Positions 9,460 to 60,097 of a DNA stretch of 64,000 nt are shown here, piece after piece. Origin of the DNA: Bacillus sp. FJAT-22090 (GTDB taxonomy: Bacteria > Bacillota > Bacilli > Bacillales_A > Planococcaceae); assembly GCF_001278755.1 (NCBI RefSeq), contig NZ_CP012601.1:2914001-2978000 (forward strand), read 5' to 3'. The translations under genes were made by a program, and so were the position numbers. The first letter of the stretch is position 1, and each line of letters begins with the position of its first letter. Below the pieces are notes generated by a model. The model saw nothing but the letters and a program-made list of their open reading frames with translations, had not been told where the DNA came from and ran no database searches.

Positions 9460-9684
9460 TTTGTCCAGACCCTAGGCACCAACCCCTCGAGGTCGAATGG
9501 GAATCTTCTGCGTCCAACTAGTTGGACTACGAACCTTCCCATTCGCTTGTCGGAGGCCCACACGAAGTGGGTCATGCAGTCGTTGCGAAATGTTCTTTTA
9601 TTTTGCGACGAGCTTTGCGCAGGAGCACCACGATGTCGCGAATTTAGACTGTATCCCACTGACAGGCGCCTTGCACTTTTCTTA
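9460..9684. repeat. Multi-stem structured intergenic repeat inside a transporter operon
   Basis: Fills most of the gap between binding-protein stop and permease start. Visible parts: perfect 16-bp palindrome GTCCAACTAGTTGGAC (9512-9527), enclosed by GAATGGGAA (9495-9503) and its complement TTCCCATTC (9536-9544); GCCCAC/GTGGGT hairpin near 9556-9572; paired TTGCGAAAT/ATTTTGCGA arms near 9581-9608. Edges carry the phrases ggcaccaacccctcgagg and ggcgccttgcacttttctta, which I recall from a dispersed Bacillaceae repeat (memory, not a search). Its right end supplies the TAA stop of the binding-protein gene. Overlapping short frames here on both strands are not credible genes. Confidence 0.65.
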
Positions 9685-14085: not shown

Positions 14086-15083
14086 TACAAATTGTAAAAA
14101 CAAGCACTTATTTTCCGCCCCAAGTTGAAACAGCTCGTTTACTAGAAGTAAAAACAGGCATTCCAGAAAATGTGATAAAAGAAAAATTCGGTCTCTACGA
14201 AAAACATGTTGCTGATTCATCAATGCATGCTTCTGATATGGCCATTAACGCTGCCTTGCCGCTATTAGAGGTGGTTGATCCACTAAACATAGACGTTGTC
14301 ATTTACTTCGGAAGTCCGTTTAAAGATTATGGCGTTTGGTCAAGTGCCCCAAAAATCCAATATGAGCTCGGTACAAAAAATGCCTATGCTTTTGAAATAA
14401 TGAATGTCAGCTCTTGTTTTCCTATCGCCCTTAAGGTAGCAAAAGATATGTTAACTTCCGATAAAACACTAAACCATATCTTACTTGTTGGAGGGTGTAA
14501 GGAATCACAAATTATTGACTATCAAAATCCTAGATCAAGATTTATGTTCAATTTTGCTGATGGGGGTGCAGCAGCGCTTCTATCAAGAGATAATGGTAAA
14601 TTTGAAATTTTAGAGTCTACCATTTATACAGATGGTTCCTTCCATGACGATATACGTGTTCCAGCTGGAGGGTCTGTTCTTCCCGCTTCACACGAAACAG
14701 TGGAAGATAATCTCCATTTTATCGATGTAAAGGATCCTGCAGATATGAAAGAACGGCTTGACCCAGTATCTGTAGCAAATTTTGTAAAGGTAGTAAAAGA
14801 TTCAGTAGAAAAAAGCGGATATACATTGCACGATATCGATATGCTCCTACCACTGCATACAAAAAAGTCGATGTTTAAACAAATATTAAACGGATTAGAG
14901 CTTTCTGAAGATAAAGCAATTTATCTCGACCATCATGGTCATATGTCTTCCCTTGACCCACTTGTAGGACTCGATTTTGCTGAAGCTGATCAAAAACTTA
15001 AAAAAGGGGACATTGTTGTCACAGTGAGCGCTGGAACAGGTTACACATGGACAGCGACAACTTTAATAAAAATAAGAGACTAA
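14082..15083 (+). CDS. 3-oxoacyl-ACP synthase III-like condensing enzyme
   Basis: 333 aa, the usual FabH length, thiolase fold. The nucleophile lies in VSSCFPIAL (Cys112, same number as E. coli FabH Cys112); the first His is in LLPLHTKK (His259). The third triad position, normally Asn in a GNTS motif, reads GHMSS (His287). The protein is therefore a Cys-His-His member of the family rather than the classical Cys-His-Asn type, which argues against housekeeping FabH and for an acyl-CoA-linked condensing, transfer or hydrolytic role. Translationally coupled to MaoC by a 4-bp overlap. Confidence 0.85.
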   Translation: MIQIVKTSTYFPPQVETARLLEVKTGIPENVIKEKFGLYEKHVADSSMHASDMAINAALPLLEVVDPLNIDVVIYFGSPFKDYGVWSSAPKIQYELGTKNAYAFEIMNVSSCFPIALKVAKDMLTSDKTLNHILLVGGCKESQIIDYQNPRSRFMFNFADGGAAALLSRDNGKFEILESTIYTDGSFHDDIRVPAGGSVLPASHETVEDNLHFIDVKDPADMKERLDPVSVANFVKVVKDSVEKSGYTLHDIDMLLPLHTKKSMFKQILNGLELSEDKAIYLDHHGHMSSLDPLVGLDFAEADQKLKKGDIVVTVSAGTGYTWTATTLIKIRD

Positions 15084-15094
15084 GAAGGAAGAAA

Positions 15095-16321
15095 ATGAAA
15101 ACTTTTAAAAACAAAACGGTTTGCTTAGGTCTATTTTTATCACTTCTGTTGTTTATCTTTGGGTGTAGCTCCGATAATGGGGATACTGTAGAGGTTGAAG
15201 CGAATGATGCTGCACCTATTAAAATTGGTGTACTTGCATCTTTAACTGGTGGTTTAGAATCCTATGGAAAACAATCTGTTCAAGGCTTTGAGCTAGGTCT
15301 TGACTATGCAACAGATGGAACGATGGAAGTCGAAGGTCGAAAAATAGAATTTATTGTAGAGGATACAGAAACAAAAGCAGAGGTCGCAGTACAAAAAGCT
15401 ACCAAACTATTAGAAGAAGATAAGGTTGATTTTCTTGTAGGTTCTTCTAGCTCTGGTGACACATTAGCAGTTTTACCTCTTGCAGAGGAATATGAAAAAA
15501 TTATGGTTGTAGAGCCAGCCGCTGCAGATAGTATTACCGGCGCGGAGTTCAATAAGTATATTTTCCGCACAGCTCGAAATTCATCTCAGGATGCGGTCGC
15601 AGGTGCAGCTGCTATTGTTAAAAAAGGCGTTAAAATTGCTACCCTTGCTCCTGATTACTCATTTGGTCAAGATGGTGTTGCTGCTTTAAAAGAAGCAGCT
15701 ATCAAGCTAGGTGGTGACATTATTCATGAAGAATATGTGGATCCTGCTGCTACAGATTTTACTTCCAATATTTAAAAGATTATCGATCAAAAACCTGACT
15801 ATTTATATGTTATCTGGGCAGGCTCCAACACACCATGGAACCAAATCATGGATATGAAAGTACAAGAAAAAGGAATCAAAATCTCTACTGGTGTTGCAGA
15901 TATAGCCACTTTACCTACAATGAAACCTCTTGTGGGAATGGAAGGTTTTACGGTCTATTATCATGAGTTACCAGATAACAAAGTAAACACATGGCTTGTA
16001 GAGGAACACAAAAAGAAATTTAATGGGGAGGTTCCAGATCTTTTCACACCTGGTGGAATGAGTGCAGCATTAGCGATAGTAGAAGCAGTGAAGAAAACAG
16101 AAGGTAATACCGATACGGATACACTTATAGAGACAATGGAAGGAATGAGCTTTGAATCACCAAAAGGTACCATGACCTTCCGTCCAGAAGACCATCAAGC
16201 GCTCCAATCACTTTATGCAGTGAAACTTGAAAACAGAGAAGGATTGGACTATCCTGTCCCTGTATTAGTAAGAGAGCTAACTCCTGAAGAAACTGCTCCT
16301 CCGATTCGAAATACTAAATAA
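15095..16321 (+). pseudogene. LivK-like amino acid ABC binding protein with in-frame stop
   Basis: From ATG 15095 (AAGGAAG upstream) the frame encodes a lipoprotein signal (lipobox FGC), then a periplasmic-binding type I fold (KIGVLASLTGGLESYGKQ). It is cut by TAA at 15773-15775 after ATDFTSNI, then continues in the same frame from KIIDQKPDYLYVIWAG to 16321 (408 codons in all). Relatives have a codon such as Gln here, so one C-to-T change (CAA to TAA) explains the break. No LivHMGF permease or ATPase genes follow. Either a recent pseudogene, a sequencing error, or rare readthrough. Confidence 0.85.
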
Positions 16322-16339
16322 CATGTTTTCCGAGACTTA

Positions 16340-16373
16340 CCGCTCGCTTTTTACAGGCGAGCGGACTCTTTTA
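16340..16373 (+). terminator. Intrinsic terminator closing the acyl-CoA operon
   Basis: CCGCTCGC (16340-16347) pairs perfectly with GCGAGCGG (16357-16364) across a 9-nt loop, followed by ACTCTTTT. It lies 19 bp after the last stop codon. Confidence 0.85.
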
Positions 16374-16421
16374 CCATACCAAAAGAGTAATTTAAACACT
16401 TTTTGCTTTTGTCTAAATGAT

Positions 16422-16494
16422 TTAGTTGGAAATTTAGAGTGCTTAGTTGGAATAATGAACGATTTAGTTGGAATCTAAACGCAATTAGTTGGAA
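16422..16494. repeat. Phased decamer array A: 4 x TTAGTTGGAA at exact 21-bp pitch
   Basis: TTAGTTGGAA occurs at 16422, 16443, 16464 and 16485, each identical and each exactly 21 bp from the next. The 11-bp spacers between copies are unrelated in sequence. The array lies after the terminator at 16340-16373 and about 150 bp before the small lipoprotein gene at 16644. The remaining sequence of the gap 16322-16643 holds only that gene's promoter. Confidence 0.9.
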
Positions 16495-16574
16495 AGTGCC
16501 TTTTTTATGGAAGAAAACAATTACTTCCCTTAAATTTCTATTAAGCTTTCCGTAAGCGAGTAGTTAGAAAATAT

Positions 16575-16603
16575 TTGACTTCATTCACACTCTCTTCTAG
16601 GAT
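16575..16603 (+). promoter_or_regulatory. Sigma-A-type promoter of the 16644 lipoprotein gene
   Basis: TTGACT (16575-16580), 17-bp spacer, TAGGAT (16598-16603). The 35 element is near consensus and the 10 element is weaker. The gene's ribosome site AAAGGAG follows at about 16627. Confidence 0.5.
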
Positions 16604-16643
16604 AATGTTTTAGGACTTTATTTATTAAAGGAGTGTTTATGAT

Positions 16644-17048
16644 TTGAAGAAATTATTAGTAGCTTTTCTTGGATTAGCTCTACTTGCAGGGTGTTCCGAA
16701 GAAACGGTAGATACTAACGAAGATAATGCCGTAGAAACTGAAAATGTGGACGTAGAAGAAAATGTAACAATTGAAGAAAACGCTGAGAAAAGCGCTAATT
16801 CTACTGAAGAAAATAAGGGCCAAAGTGATATAAAAAGTTTCCCTGAGTTCGTAATGTTAGCTAAACATATTGATATGACTAAGTATATTGCTAAAGTTGA
16901 AACAGATAACGAAGGAACTCGTGTCATATTCTTTGAAAATAGTGAAGGTAAAAAAGAATACAAAAGCACCTTTGTTAAAAATGAAAATCGACTTAAAATC
17001 ATCAAGTTAGACGATGATGGTTTAATTTTCAATGAAATAATTAAGTAA
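16644..17048 (+). CDS. Small putative lipoprotein of unknown function
   Basis: 134 aa from a TTG start with AAAGGAG 10 nt upstream. Signal peptide MKKLLVAFLGLALLAGC with lipobox LAGC, a Glu/Asn/Val-rich acidic linker to about residue 60, and a C-terminal domain of about 70 residues (SFPEFVMLAKHIDMTKY...). No family recognised. Monocistronic: it has its own promoter and a shared terminator at 17081-17122. Confidence 0.75.
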   Translation: MKKLLVAFLGLALLAGCSEETVDTNEDNAVETENVDVEENVTIEENAEKSANSTEENKGQSDIKSFPEFVMLAKHIDMTKYIAKVETDNEGTRVIFFENSEGKKEYKSTFVKNENRLKIIKLDDDGLIFNEIIK

Positions 17049-17080
17049 TGAAAATTGCGAATCCAGAGTTTTAATCATAA

Positions 17081-17122
17081 AAAACCCTCAGCTCAAGTGT
17101 CACTTGCTCTGAGGGTTTCGTT
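17081..17122. terminator. Bidirectional terminator between lipoprotein gene and opuAC
   Basis: AAACCCTCAG (17082-17091) pairs with CTGAGGGTTT (17109-17118), with an inner AAGTG/CACTT stem. A-runs on one side and T-rich sequence on the other serve the two converging genes. Confidence 0.85.
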
Positions 17123-17131
17123 TCTAGTTAT

Positions 17132-18900
<1,769 letters not shown>

Positions 18901-39681: not shown

Positions 39682-39771
39682 TTGGTTGCTTTCGTTTAAG
39701 TATTGGTTGCTTTACTTTGAATTTAGTTGCTTTATGTTGCATTTGGTTGCTTTCATCAATGATTTGGTCTC
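39682..39771. repeat. Phased array B: TTGGTTGCTTT-type units at 20-21 bp pitch
   Basis: Units start at 39682 (TTGGTTGCTTT), 39703 (TTGGTTGCTTT), 39723 (TTAGTTGCTTT), 39743 (TTGGTTGCTTT) and a degenerate one at 39764 (TTGGTCTC). Steps are 21, 20, 20 and 21 bp; the sequence between units is unrelated. It lies just before the 63-aa gene at 39832. Confidence 0.88.
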
Positions 39772-39831
39772 AATTAGGATTATTTATCCATTTATGATAG
39801 GATTAGGTCATTAATGTACGGAGGATAATAG

Positions 39832-55878: not shown

Positions 55879-55942
55879 GGGGGCACATAAAAAAAACAGA
55901 TTGTTTTGAACAAAAATCTGTATAACTACATACCGTTTTCTG

Positions 55943-56036
55943 CACTGGGGGTGCCCACTATGGCTGAGATGCGAGCTTTTTGCTCCGATCCCTTATAACT
56001 CGATCAGGATAATACCTGCGTGAGGAAGTGCGGTGA
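55943..56036 (+). promoter_or_regulatory. TPP riboswitch (THI element)
   Basis: Conserved THI-box blocks in order: GGGGGTGCCC, TGGCTGAGATG, then CTCGATCAGGATAATACCTG and CGTGAGGAAGTG. The CUGAGA and AUACCUG...GAGGAAG parts form the thiamine pyrophosphate pocket. With TPP bound, folding should favour the downstream terminator and shut off thiamine/HMP uptake genes. Confidence 0.95.
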
Positions 56037-56067
56037 CTTTCCGACTTTTTTCATATTGGATAAGTGG

Positions 56068-59967: not shown

Positions 59968-59983
59968 GAATTGTGGCGTTTGT

Positions 59984-60097
59984 GTCCGGATAAGATGGAT
60001 TTCTGACCGTATAAACAAATTTCCGTCCGCATAAAAATTTTTATAACCGTATAGGACAATTTCTGACCGGATACTACAAAAATTTATGTCCACATGA
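59984..60097. repeat. Phased array C: GACCGNATAA-type units at about 20-bp pitch
   Basis: Units start at 59984 (GTCCGGATAA), 60005 (GACCGTATAA), 60025 (GTCCGCATAA), 60045 (AACCGTATAG), 60065 (GACCGGATAC) and a weak one at 60088 (GTCCACATGA). Steps are 21, 20, 20, 20 and 23 bp. Several copies share an upstream ATTTCT extension. The array fills much of the gap 59968-60204, about 110 bp before the VOC gene. Confidence 0.85.

Follow-up and report, generated by a model that had tools for sequence, protein, structure and literature searches.

The window analyzed here is a stretch of 64,000 nucleotides from Bacillus sp. FJAT-22090 (own genome, G000), and three phased repeat arrays, A, B and C, were located in it (Table 1). 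Array A lies between two open frames. The upstream frame is what we take to be part of a substrate-binding-type lipoprotein gene, a name suggested by the appearance of the sequence, and this gene is split by one in-frame stop at 15773-15775 (15047-15775 and 15848-16321, same frame). A terminator-like hairpin follows it and a promoter-like site precedes the next gene; in the region 16200-17200 one such hairpin was found against a shuffle mean of 0.4, and eight promoter-like sites against a mean of 3.8. No Rfam family was matched at array A at gathering scores. Elsewhere in the window, Rfam matches were obtained for the Bacillaceae-1 RNA at 9557-9663 (-) and for a TPP riboswitch at 55937-56043 (+).

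Table 1. Coordinates of the arrays and neighboring features in the window, and of phased words without GTTG at other loci of the own genome and genus.
Feature	Position	Strand	Description
Upstream open frame	15848..16321	+	3′ part of putative substrate-binding-type lipoprotein gene, named by look of sequence
Terminator-like hairpin	16340..16364	+	T-rich tail; between upstream gene and array A, 57 nt before first unit
Array A	16422..16494	+	four units TTAGTTGGAA at 16422, 16443, 16464, 16485; pitch exactly 21
Array A spacers			in order: ATTTAGAGTGC, TAATGAACGAT, TCTAAACGCAA (11 bp each)
Promoter-like site	16575..16603	+	before next gene, ~80 bp past array A; weak consensus match
Downstream open frame	16644..17048	+	small, lipoprotein-like by eye
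Array B	39682..39774	+	five units TTGGTTGCTTT / TTAGTTGCTTT / TTGGTCTCAAT; pitch 21/20/20/21
Array C	59979..60072	+	five degenerate units around TTTCTGACCGGAT; pitch 21/20/20/20; just past a stop codon
Non-GTTG word, L290	17286
Non-GTTG word, L300	4098, 4235
Non-GTTG word, L306	11626
Non-GTTG word, L307	181
Non-GTTG word, L146	9335
Non-GTTG word, L149	5637

The exact decamer named in the original prediction was recovered as four perfect copies of TTAGTTGGAA at a 21-bp pitch. Identical 10-mers at one constant pitch (12-60) occur in the window threefold at two start positions and fourfold at one. Equally good phased sets in shuffled sequence had been named as grounds for dismissing the array, and none of 100 dinucleotide shuffles of the window gave a set of three or four identical 10-mers at constant pitch. 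Repeated 9-mer pairs reach their maximum at lag 21 (11), followed by lag 42 (7). CRISPR arrays consist of identical repeats of about 21 bp or more, separated by unique spacers of similar length. Array A has a 10-bp unit and 11-bp spacers with a common A/T bias, and the spacers of homologous arrays change by substitution; the earlier view, which excluded both a CRISPR and a plain tandem duplication, was right. Concerning the two further arrays of the same pitch that had been announced, B is real, while C is looser in pitch, has degenerate units and was left unflagged by an unbiased triple scan of the window. The core TTRGTTG common to A and B was borne out. This core is not general, as most words in an unselected sample of the own genome are without GTTG.

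Dispersal and anatomy of type A arrays

The type A pair pattern matched the own genome 43 times at up to three mismatches, 31 of them perfectly, with no match of the reversed control. These matches represent ten clear loci (eleven arrays), plus two pairs with 2 mismatches and another four with 3, probably due to chance. At up to two mismatches the pattern was present in 15 of 41 genomes (the own one and 40 relatives), specifically in 14 of the 19 own-genus genomes, some with one or two matches only against a control that matched once each in five genomes, and with one match in a distant genome. The exact triple, searched in one genome per species over 84,980 species, led to 46 stretches, all of them from Psychrobacillus. 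As to the refuting case, that array A is a copy of a known dispersed repeat, dispersed it proved to be, while no published description was found in the open-licence literature, outside which most subscription papers lie.

From the own genome and the 46 Psychrobacillus stretches we collected 64 type A arrays of at least three units, the loci being picked by pitch 21 and overlaps kept in. Nine of them have three units, 27 four, 27 five and one seven. TTAGTTGGAA opens each unit and is followed by three positions of A or T, one that is rich in T, six that are near random and a final T. The spacers, previously thought unrelated, are in fact biased: over 213 spacers of the 64 arrays, positions 11-13 are nearly all A or T, position 14 is mostly T, position 21 is T in 79% and positions 15-20 are near random. 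The commonest variant of the word, TTAGTTGTAA, is frequent in last units (14/64) compared with middle (12/149) and first ones (2/64). With the arrays masked, collinear flank homology was found in 0 of 54 pairs of own-genome type A arrays and in nine of 306 pairs over seven species, six of these being in NEAU-3TGS, where a neighboring second array explains them. Type A therefore does not look like an element with fixed ends, and a MITE, with its terminal inverted repeats and a body common to unrelated loci, is disfavored for it on the same ground; type B has an extended common body in some G010 and G005 copies. Whole arrays are also tandemly duplicated within one intergenic region, as two to five arrays about 140-225 bp apart (L014, L093, L097, L114, L115, L117, L023, L155).

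Thirteen array pairs with homologous flanks could be aligned, and 12 were compared after leaving out L104/L106, which come from one species. The decamer differed at 7 of 490 positions, the spacers at 83 of 406 and the flanks at 544 of 3361 (p = 4e-23 for decamer against spacer and p = 0.03 for spacer against flank). L108 is a member of three of these pairs. Gaps in all 13 pairs amounted to 126 over 3580 aligned columns in the flanks and 8 over 969 in the arrays; two array gaps are exactly 21 bp and a group of 3+2+16 in one pair also sums to 21. An exact triple decamer at pitch 21 had served as the search key for nearly all of the 64 type A arrays and for both members of each pair compared. Constraint is consequently overstated by the small number of decamer differences, by the scarcity of gaps in the arrays and by the count of successive type A distances (within 19-22 bp) that equal 21, 211 of 216. 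Less biased signs of word conservation are the G013 arrays behind eno and the unselected ruler, both described below. In L087 vs. L090 the flanks differ at 10 of 287 positions and the spacers at 15 of 33, so units have been exchanged and the word retained.

Changing words and the 21-bp spacing

Type B (TTGGTYGCTYT) is far more frequent in certain species, with 394 pair matches in G009 and 346 in G013 compared with 36 in the own genome; out of 19 genomes of the own genus, eight had no match and four others had one or two. Among the 59 B arrays collected, 35 have five units, and their 220 pitches, counted within 20-22 bp only, are 21 in 194 cases, 20 in 23 and 22 in three. In G010 and G005, some B arrays are embedded in sequence that is homologous over several hundred bp between different loci. 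Nesting of B arrays in larger dispersed intergenic repeats was seen at L219, L226, L228 and L229 (G010) and at L157, L233, L238, L246, L249 and L251, and a GGACGCTTTCCGCGGGG-like motif recurs in those larger repeats and behind eno in several species.

The importance given to the pitch from the start was upheld by pitch-free scans, which pick out 21 and, to a lesser degree, 20. Three sets that had not been chosen for arrays were used: stretches of other genomes, a regular sample of the own genome and the neighborhood of eno. The first comprises 38 stretches (0.72 Mb), taken from other genera and from species of the own genus in which A matches are few or absent, and it yielded 11 phased triples at lag 21, of which five represent one G003 locus and one (L065) looks coding, with at most three at any other lag from 12 to 69. 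The second comprises 20 stretches of 20 kb at regular steps (400 kb). Strict triples (9/10 columns) were found there at lag 21 (4) and lag 42 (3) and at no other lag, and looser ones (8/10 columns) at lags 21 (5), 20 (2) and 42 (4), with five more spread over lags 12, 15, 30 and 54 (one or two each). This sample holds seven arrays of various words, five at pitch 21 and two at pitch 20, one being the type A array already known at 220.5 kb. Their words are ATCGCTCAAT, TTAGTTGGAA, a CCGGATA type, CCGATTAT, ATTGGTCTCG, ATCGGATAAT and a TATACGGACA type. Additionally, decamer matches with up to one mismatch lying less than 300 bp apart in the sample and the window were 21 apart in seven of eight cases. 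Phased words without GTTG, at pitch 20 or 21, were ATCGCTCAAT, CCGATTAT, CCGGATA, ATCGGATAAT, TATACGGACA, TTTATGTGGTG and TTTATGGGACA (Table 1).

Searching other genera of the family with the key GTTGS at pitch 21 revealed many further words, e.g., GTTGGTNGATAAA, GTTGCCCCAATA, CCAAGTTGGAAAAAT and GTTGGGCATAT. Fourfold runs occurred in 80 of 261 genomes (12/19 genera) and threefold runs in 107 of 200 genomes (16/19 genera), counts that include coding tandem repeats, have a non-zero reversed control (e.g., 67+86 in G013) and indicate breadth rather than numbers; the order-level sample contained one family only. Of 49 runs checked by script (50 locus ids), 24 were non-coding and not plain tandem repeats. 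GTTG is present in the words from other genera because the key was GTTGS, and a GTTG core common to all words was consequently rejected as an artefact of that key, the unselected words being mostly without it.

The third set was obtained by searching the 3′ part of eno in 19 own-genus genomes; the locus was found in all 19 and fetched regardless of arrays. Over about 600 nt behind eno, scanned at lags 12-60, phased triples were present in eight genomes, with lag 21 in all eight, and the other lags were 42 and 60 only, which are sums of unit steps. The word is TTAGTTGGAA in the own genome and G005, TTAGTTGTAA in G013 (two arrays, each with four identical words and unlike spacers) and AGTGTTGCG in G012, G001 and G018 (14, 20 and 18 listed units). 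In G003 and G007 it is GCAAGTAA, some 450-465 nt farther on. Successive AGTGTTGCG units are 21 or, at regular places, 18 apart, with a single step of 17 and longer ones wherever a unit escaped detection; these arrays (L178, L179, L180) have a higher-order period of four 21-bp steps and one 18-bp step, i.e., 102 bp. The AGTGTTGCG pair pattern occurs in exactly three of the 19 genomes, all without A or B matches. At 11 of the 19 loci no phased triple was found within about 600 nt, so the array is dispensable there; in one of these, G016, an array of TTAGTTGGAA/TTAGTTGTAA lies some 1 kb past eno, G009 has two stray copies and nine have none. In an alignment of G005, G016, G009, G004 and G002 the array precedes conserved sequence ahead of the next gene, and G004 and G002 are without it. 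The own-genome array lies between the stop codon of eno and its terminator. The same neighborhood can thus be free of arrays or carry any one of three words, the pitch being unchanged.

Tandem duplication (a minisatellite) or a coding heptad remnant might have left such arrays as a by-product with no present function, an explanation that we consider very unlikely. Twenty-one bp correspond to seven codons, and frame +1 is open in 52 of the 64 type A arrays and frame -3 in 45; however, frames +2 and -2 are stopped in all 64, which disfavors coding heptads, and the openness of +1 may, on our reading, follow from spacer composition. Recent unit duplications do exist (three identical units in L122), whole arrays have been locally duplicated, and the evidence for word conservation is weakened by the way the arrays were picked. 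On the other hand, the arrays are mostly intergenic and found in both orientations, B pitches of 20 (23) and 22 (3) among 220 would break the frame, and four identical words with unlike spacers, as in each G013 array behind eno, are unlike plain decay.

Genes, terminators and chromosomal position

Most type A arrays, whichever way they point, are found at the 3′ end of a gene, many of them immediately outside a terminator. A facing terminator was detected on one or both sides of 44 of the 64 arrays and on neither side of the other 20. Specifically, 29 have a sense terminator within 90 nt upstream, ending 14-21 nt before the first unit in 16 of them, and 22 have an antisense terminator within 100 nt downstream, 19-24 nt away in 17 of them; upstream antisense (10/64) and downstream sense terminators (9/64) were also recorded. 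At 320 random places in the same loci, a background unmatched for gene 3′ ends, terminators were found at 2-4%. An inverted-repeat frame around the array, with a T-run before and an A-run after it by eye, was considered, and terminators on either side explain it more simply. For B arrays, a facing terminator within 130-140 nt was found in 24 of 59.

By crude ORF calls, the genes flanking 57 type A arrays are in the same direction in 20 cases, opposite in 18, convergent in 16 and divergent in three, compared with 57, 72, 28 and 35, respectively, for the intergenic gaps above 100 bp in the same loci (divergent, p = 0.02). Gene pairs around B arrays were convergent in 25 cases, same in 19, opposite in 11 and divergent in four. 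Five arrays of the regular own-genome sample lie outside crude open frames, four of them between convergent genes (two in a single intergenic region) and none between divergent ones. Depletion of divergent pairs was not seen in arrays from other genera (5 of 22 scored). Overlap with an open frame of at least 70 codons on either strand was noted for 19 of the 64 type A arrays, and we take these frames as chance ORFs.

The same data bear on an RNA element, in which an RNA-binding protein or a small RNA would meet the word at 21-nt intervals in read-through or 3′-UTR RNA. Some arrays, like that of the own eno locus, precede a terminator and so would be transcribed. Even so, we give this possibility little credence. 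Both orientations are about equally common among type A arrays (binomial p = 0.87), which argues for DNA rather than RNA, and sense terminators lie upstream in 29 of 64 cases and downstream in only nine. RNA folding over the 64 arrays detected no fold (mean z +0.34 and -0.14 on the two strands), and it is hard to see what a spacing of whole helical turns would mean in a single-stranded RNA.

On the chromosome scale, all 26 listed A, B and C loci of the own genome, some at 3 mismatches, lie no farther from dnaA than 59% of the half-chromosome (KS p = 0.0002). The corresponding limit for the 36 listed loci of G010 is 78% (p = 0.006), and in G012 the 11 AGTGTTGCG loci are at 0.35-0.78 (p = 0.11). 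In the regular sample, a 20-22 bp array was absent from all eight stretches around the terminus (0.43-1.92 Mb) and present in six of the other 12. Of the three complete chromosomes considered (G000, G010, G012), none has a listed array in the fifth nearest the terminus. These comparisons, in which gene content is uncontrolled, suggest that the arrays avoid the terminus.

Proposed protein sites or a selfish repeat

Array A turns out to be one of a kind of repeat scattered over the chromosome, with a constant spacing and a word that varies by place and species. The arrays are dispersed, combine a repeated word with free spacers, keep a 21 (20) bp ruler, have a preferred location and are blind to orientation, and different species carry different words at one locus. 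Constant spacing with a changing word suggests landing strips for putative DNA-binding proteins, and the repeated word, free spacers, two-turn pitch and lack of strand preference would fit phased double-stranded protein sites. Our preferred reading, to which we give slightly less than even chances, is that array A comprises four double-stranded sites for a putative sequence-specific protein, with a possible role as a transcription-unit boundary. Of the original prediction of proteins on one face of the helix, the 21-bp pitch has been singled out by the scans, while binding itself, and its cooperativity, we infer. Sites two helical turns apart would bring neighboring protein copies onto one DNA face, where they could bind cooperatively or form a short filament, and different words would mean different or diverged binding proteins. 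Given that the arrays mostly lie past gene 3′ ends, irrespective of orientation and often after an intrinsic terminator, they would most probably serve as boundaries between transcription units, acting as roadblocks to read-through or as topological anchors. This boundary role, taken alone, is the weakest inferred step and perhaps rather doubtful; a tolerated selfish repeat would equally lie outside genes. A broader proposal, which we regard as improbable, would be a family-wide boundary system in the Bacillales, with related DNA-binding proteins of fast-changing specificity, arrays locked to two helical turns at transcription-unit ends, several word-protein pairs per genome and words switching between species at one place.

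The main rival, for which we see a real though smaller chance, is a selfish, REP-like mobile repeat. An enzyme recognizing the word, and needing both word and pitch, would copy the arrays, which gene 3′ ends would tolerate as insertions. This would agree with the patchiness of each word among species of one genus and at one locus, with the B-type copies of G010 and G005 that lie within several hundred bp of homologous sequence at different loci, with the exchange of units at one locus between L087 and L090 and with a location preference resembling that reported for REPs (PMC3733652). Against it stand the flanks of type A, hardly ever shared, and the failure to establish inverted ends or target duplications. 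Moreover, the Y1 (RAYT-type) transposase domain is absent from G078, a genome rich in GTTGS arrays. Three exact array patterns had no match in viral contigs, and array A had none in 72,556 plasmid or 50,697 phage records, searches of limited sensitivity with so short a query.

Small intergenic repeats with an open function abound in bacteria, and the present ones are distinguished by a strict 21-bp ruler, a repeated word with free letters between and different words in different species at one place. The contrast between word and spacer separates read from unread letters, and a binding protein could be found by pull-down, making functional boundary or selfish repeat a testable question.

Among known systems, plasmid replication iterons and partition centromere repeats are direct repeats in small sets, spaced by about two helical turns and each with a protein that binds it. 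They cluster beside a rep or par gene, whereas the present arrays are scattered over the chromosome, and a plasmid iteron or a phage or plasmid origin was rejected for array A on account of this dispersal and of the absence of matches to the short queries in the plasmid and phage records and viral contigs searched. The Sal-box or TTF-I sites of eukaryotic rDNA are repeated protein sites just downstream of a transcription unit. The present arrays may be analogous as terminator-distal repeated sites, but their protein is putative, they occur beyond rRNA genes and they are orientation-blind.

STAR elements of Staphylococcus carry the motif T(G/A/T)TGTTG(G/T)GGCCC(C/A) with at least 40 bp between copies (PMC3532100). 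They resemble the arrays in that they are direct repeats scattered between genes, with a conserved short motif and spacers that depend on the locus, and also in their variable copy number, their species-specific locations and a function not known (PMC3532100). Their motif is GC-rich and of 14 bp, and recurring sequence of 40 bp or more separates the copies (PMC3532100), in contrast to the 10-14 bp words, 21-bp pitch, spacers diverging within the array and many words observed here; a STAR element was rejected for array A because TTAGTTGGAA is without GGCCC and its pitch is 21. REPs with GTAG or CGTC tags are likewise of several types per genome, form species-specific families and lie downstream of genes, between co-directional and convergent ones (PMC3733652). 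They are palindromes with a tag (PMC3733652), whereas the array units are head-to-tail, non-palindromic and without a common tag. Specifically, a REP palindrome with a 20-40 bp unit was rejected, as TTAGTTGGAA is not its own reverse complement and the fold z is about 0 on both strands. GTAG and CGTC are absent from the A and B words, and by eye the words of the unselected sample have no common tetranucleotide. The domain PF01797 of the tyrosine transposase associated with REPs (RAYT) was found in 18 of 20 genomes, in one to three copies, and is absent from G002 and G078; no link with the arrays was shown. The own genome has a copy at 2.29 Mb, about 59 kb from the nearest listed B array.
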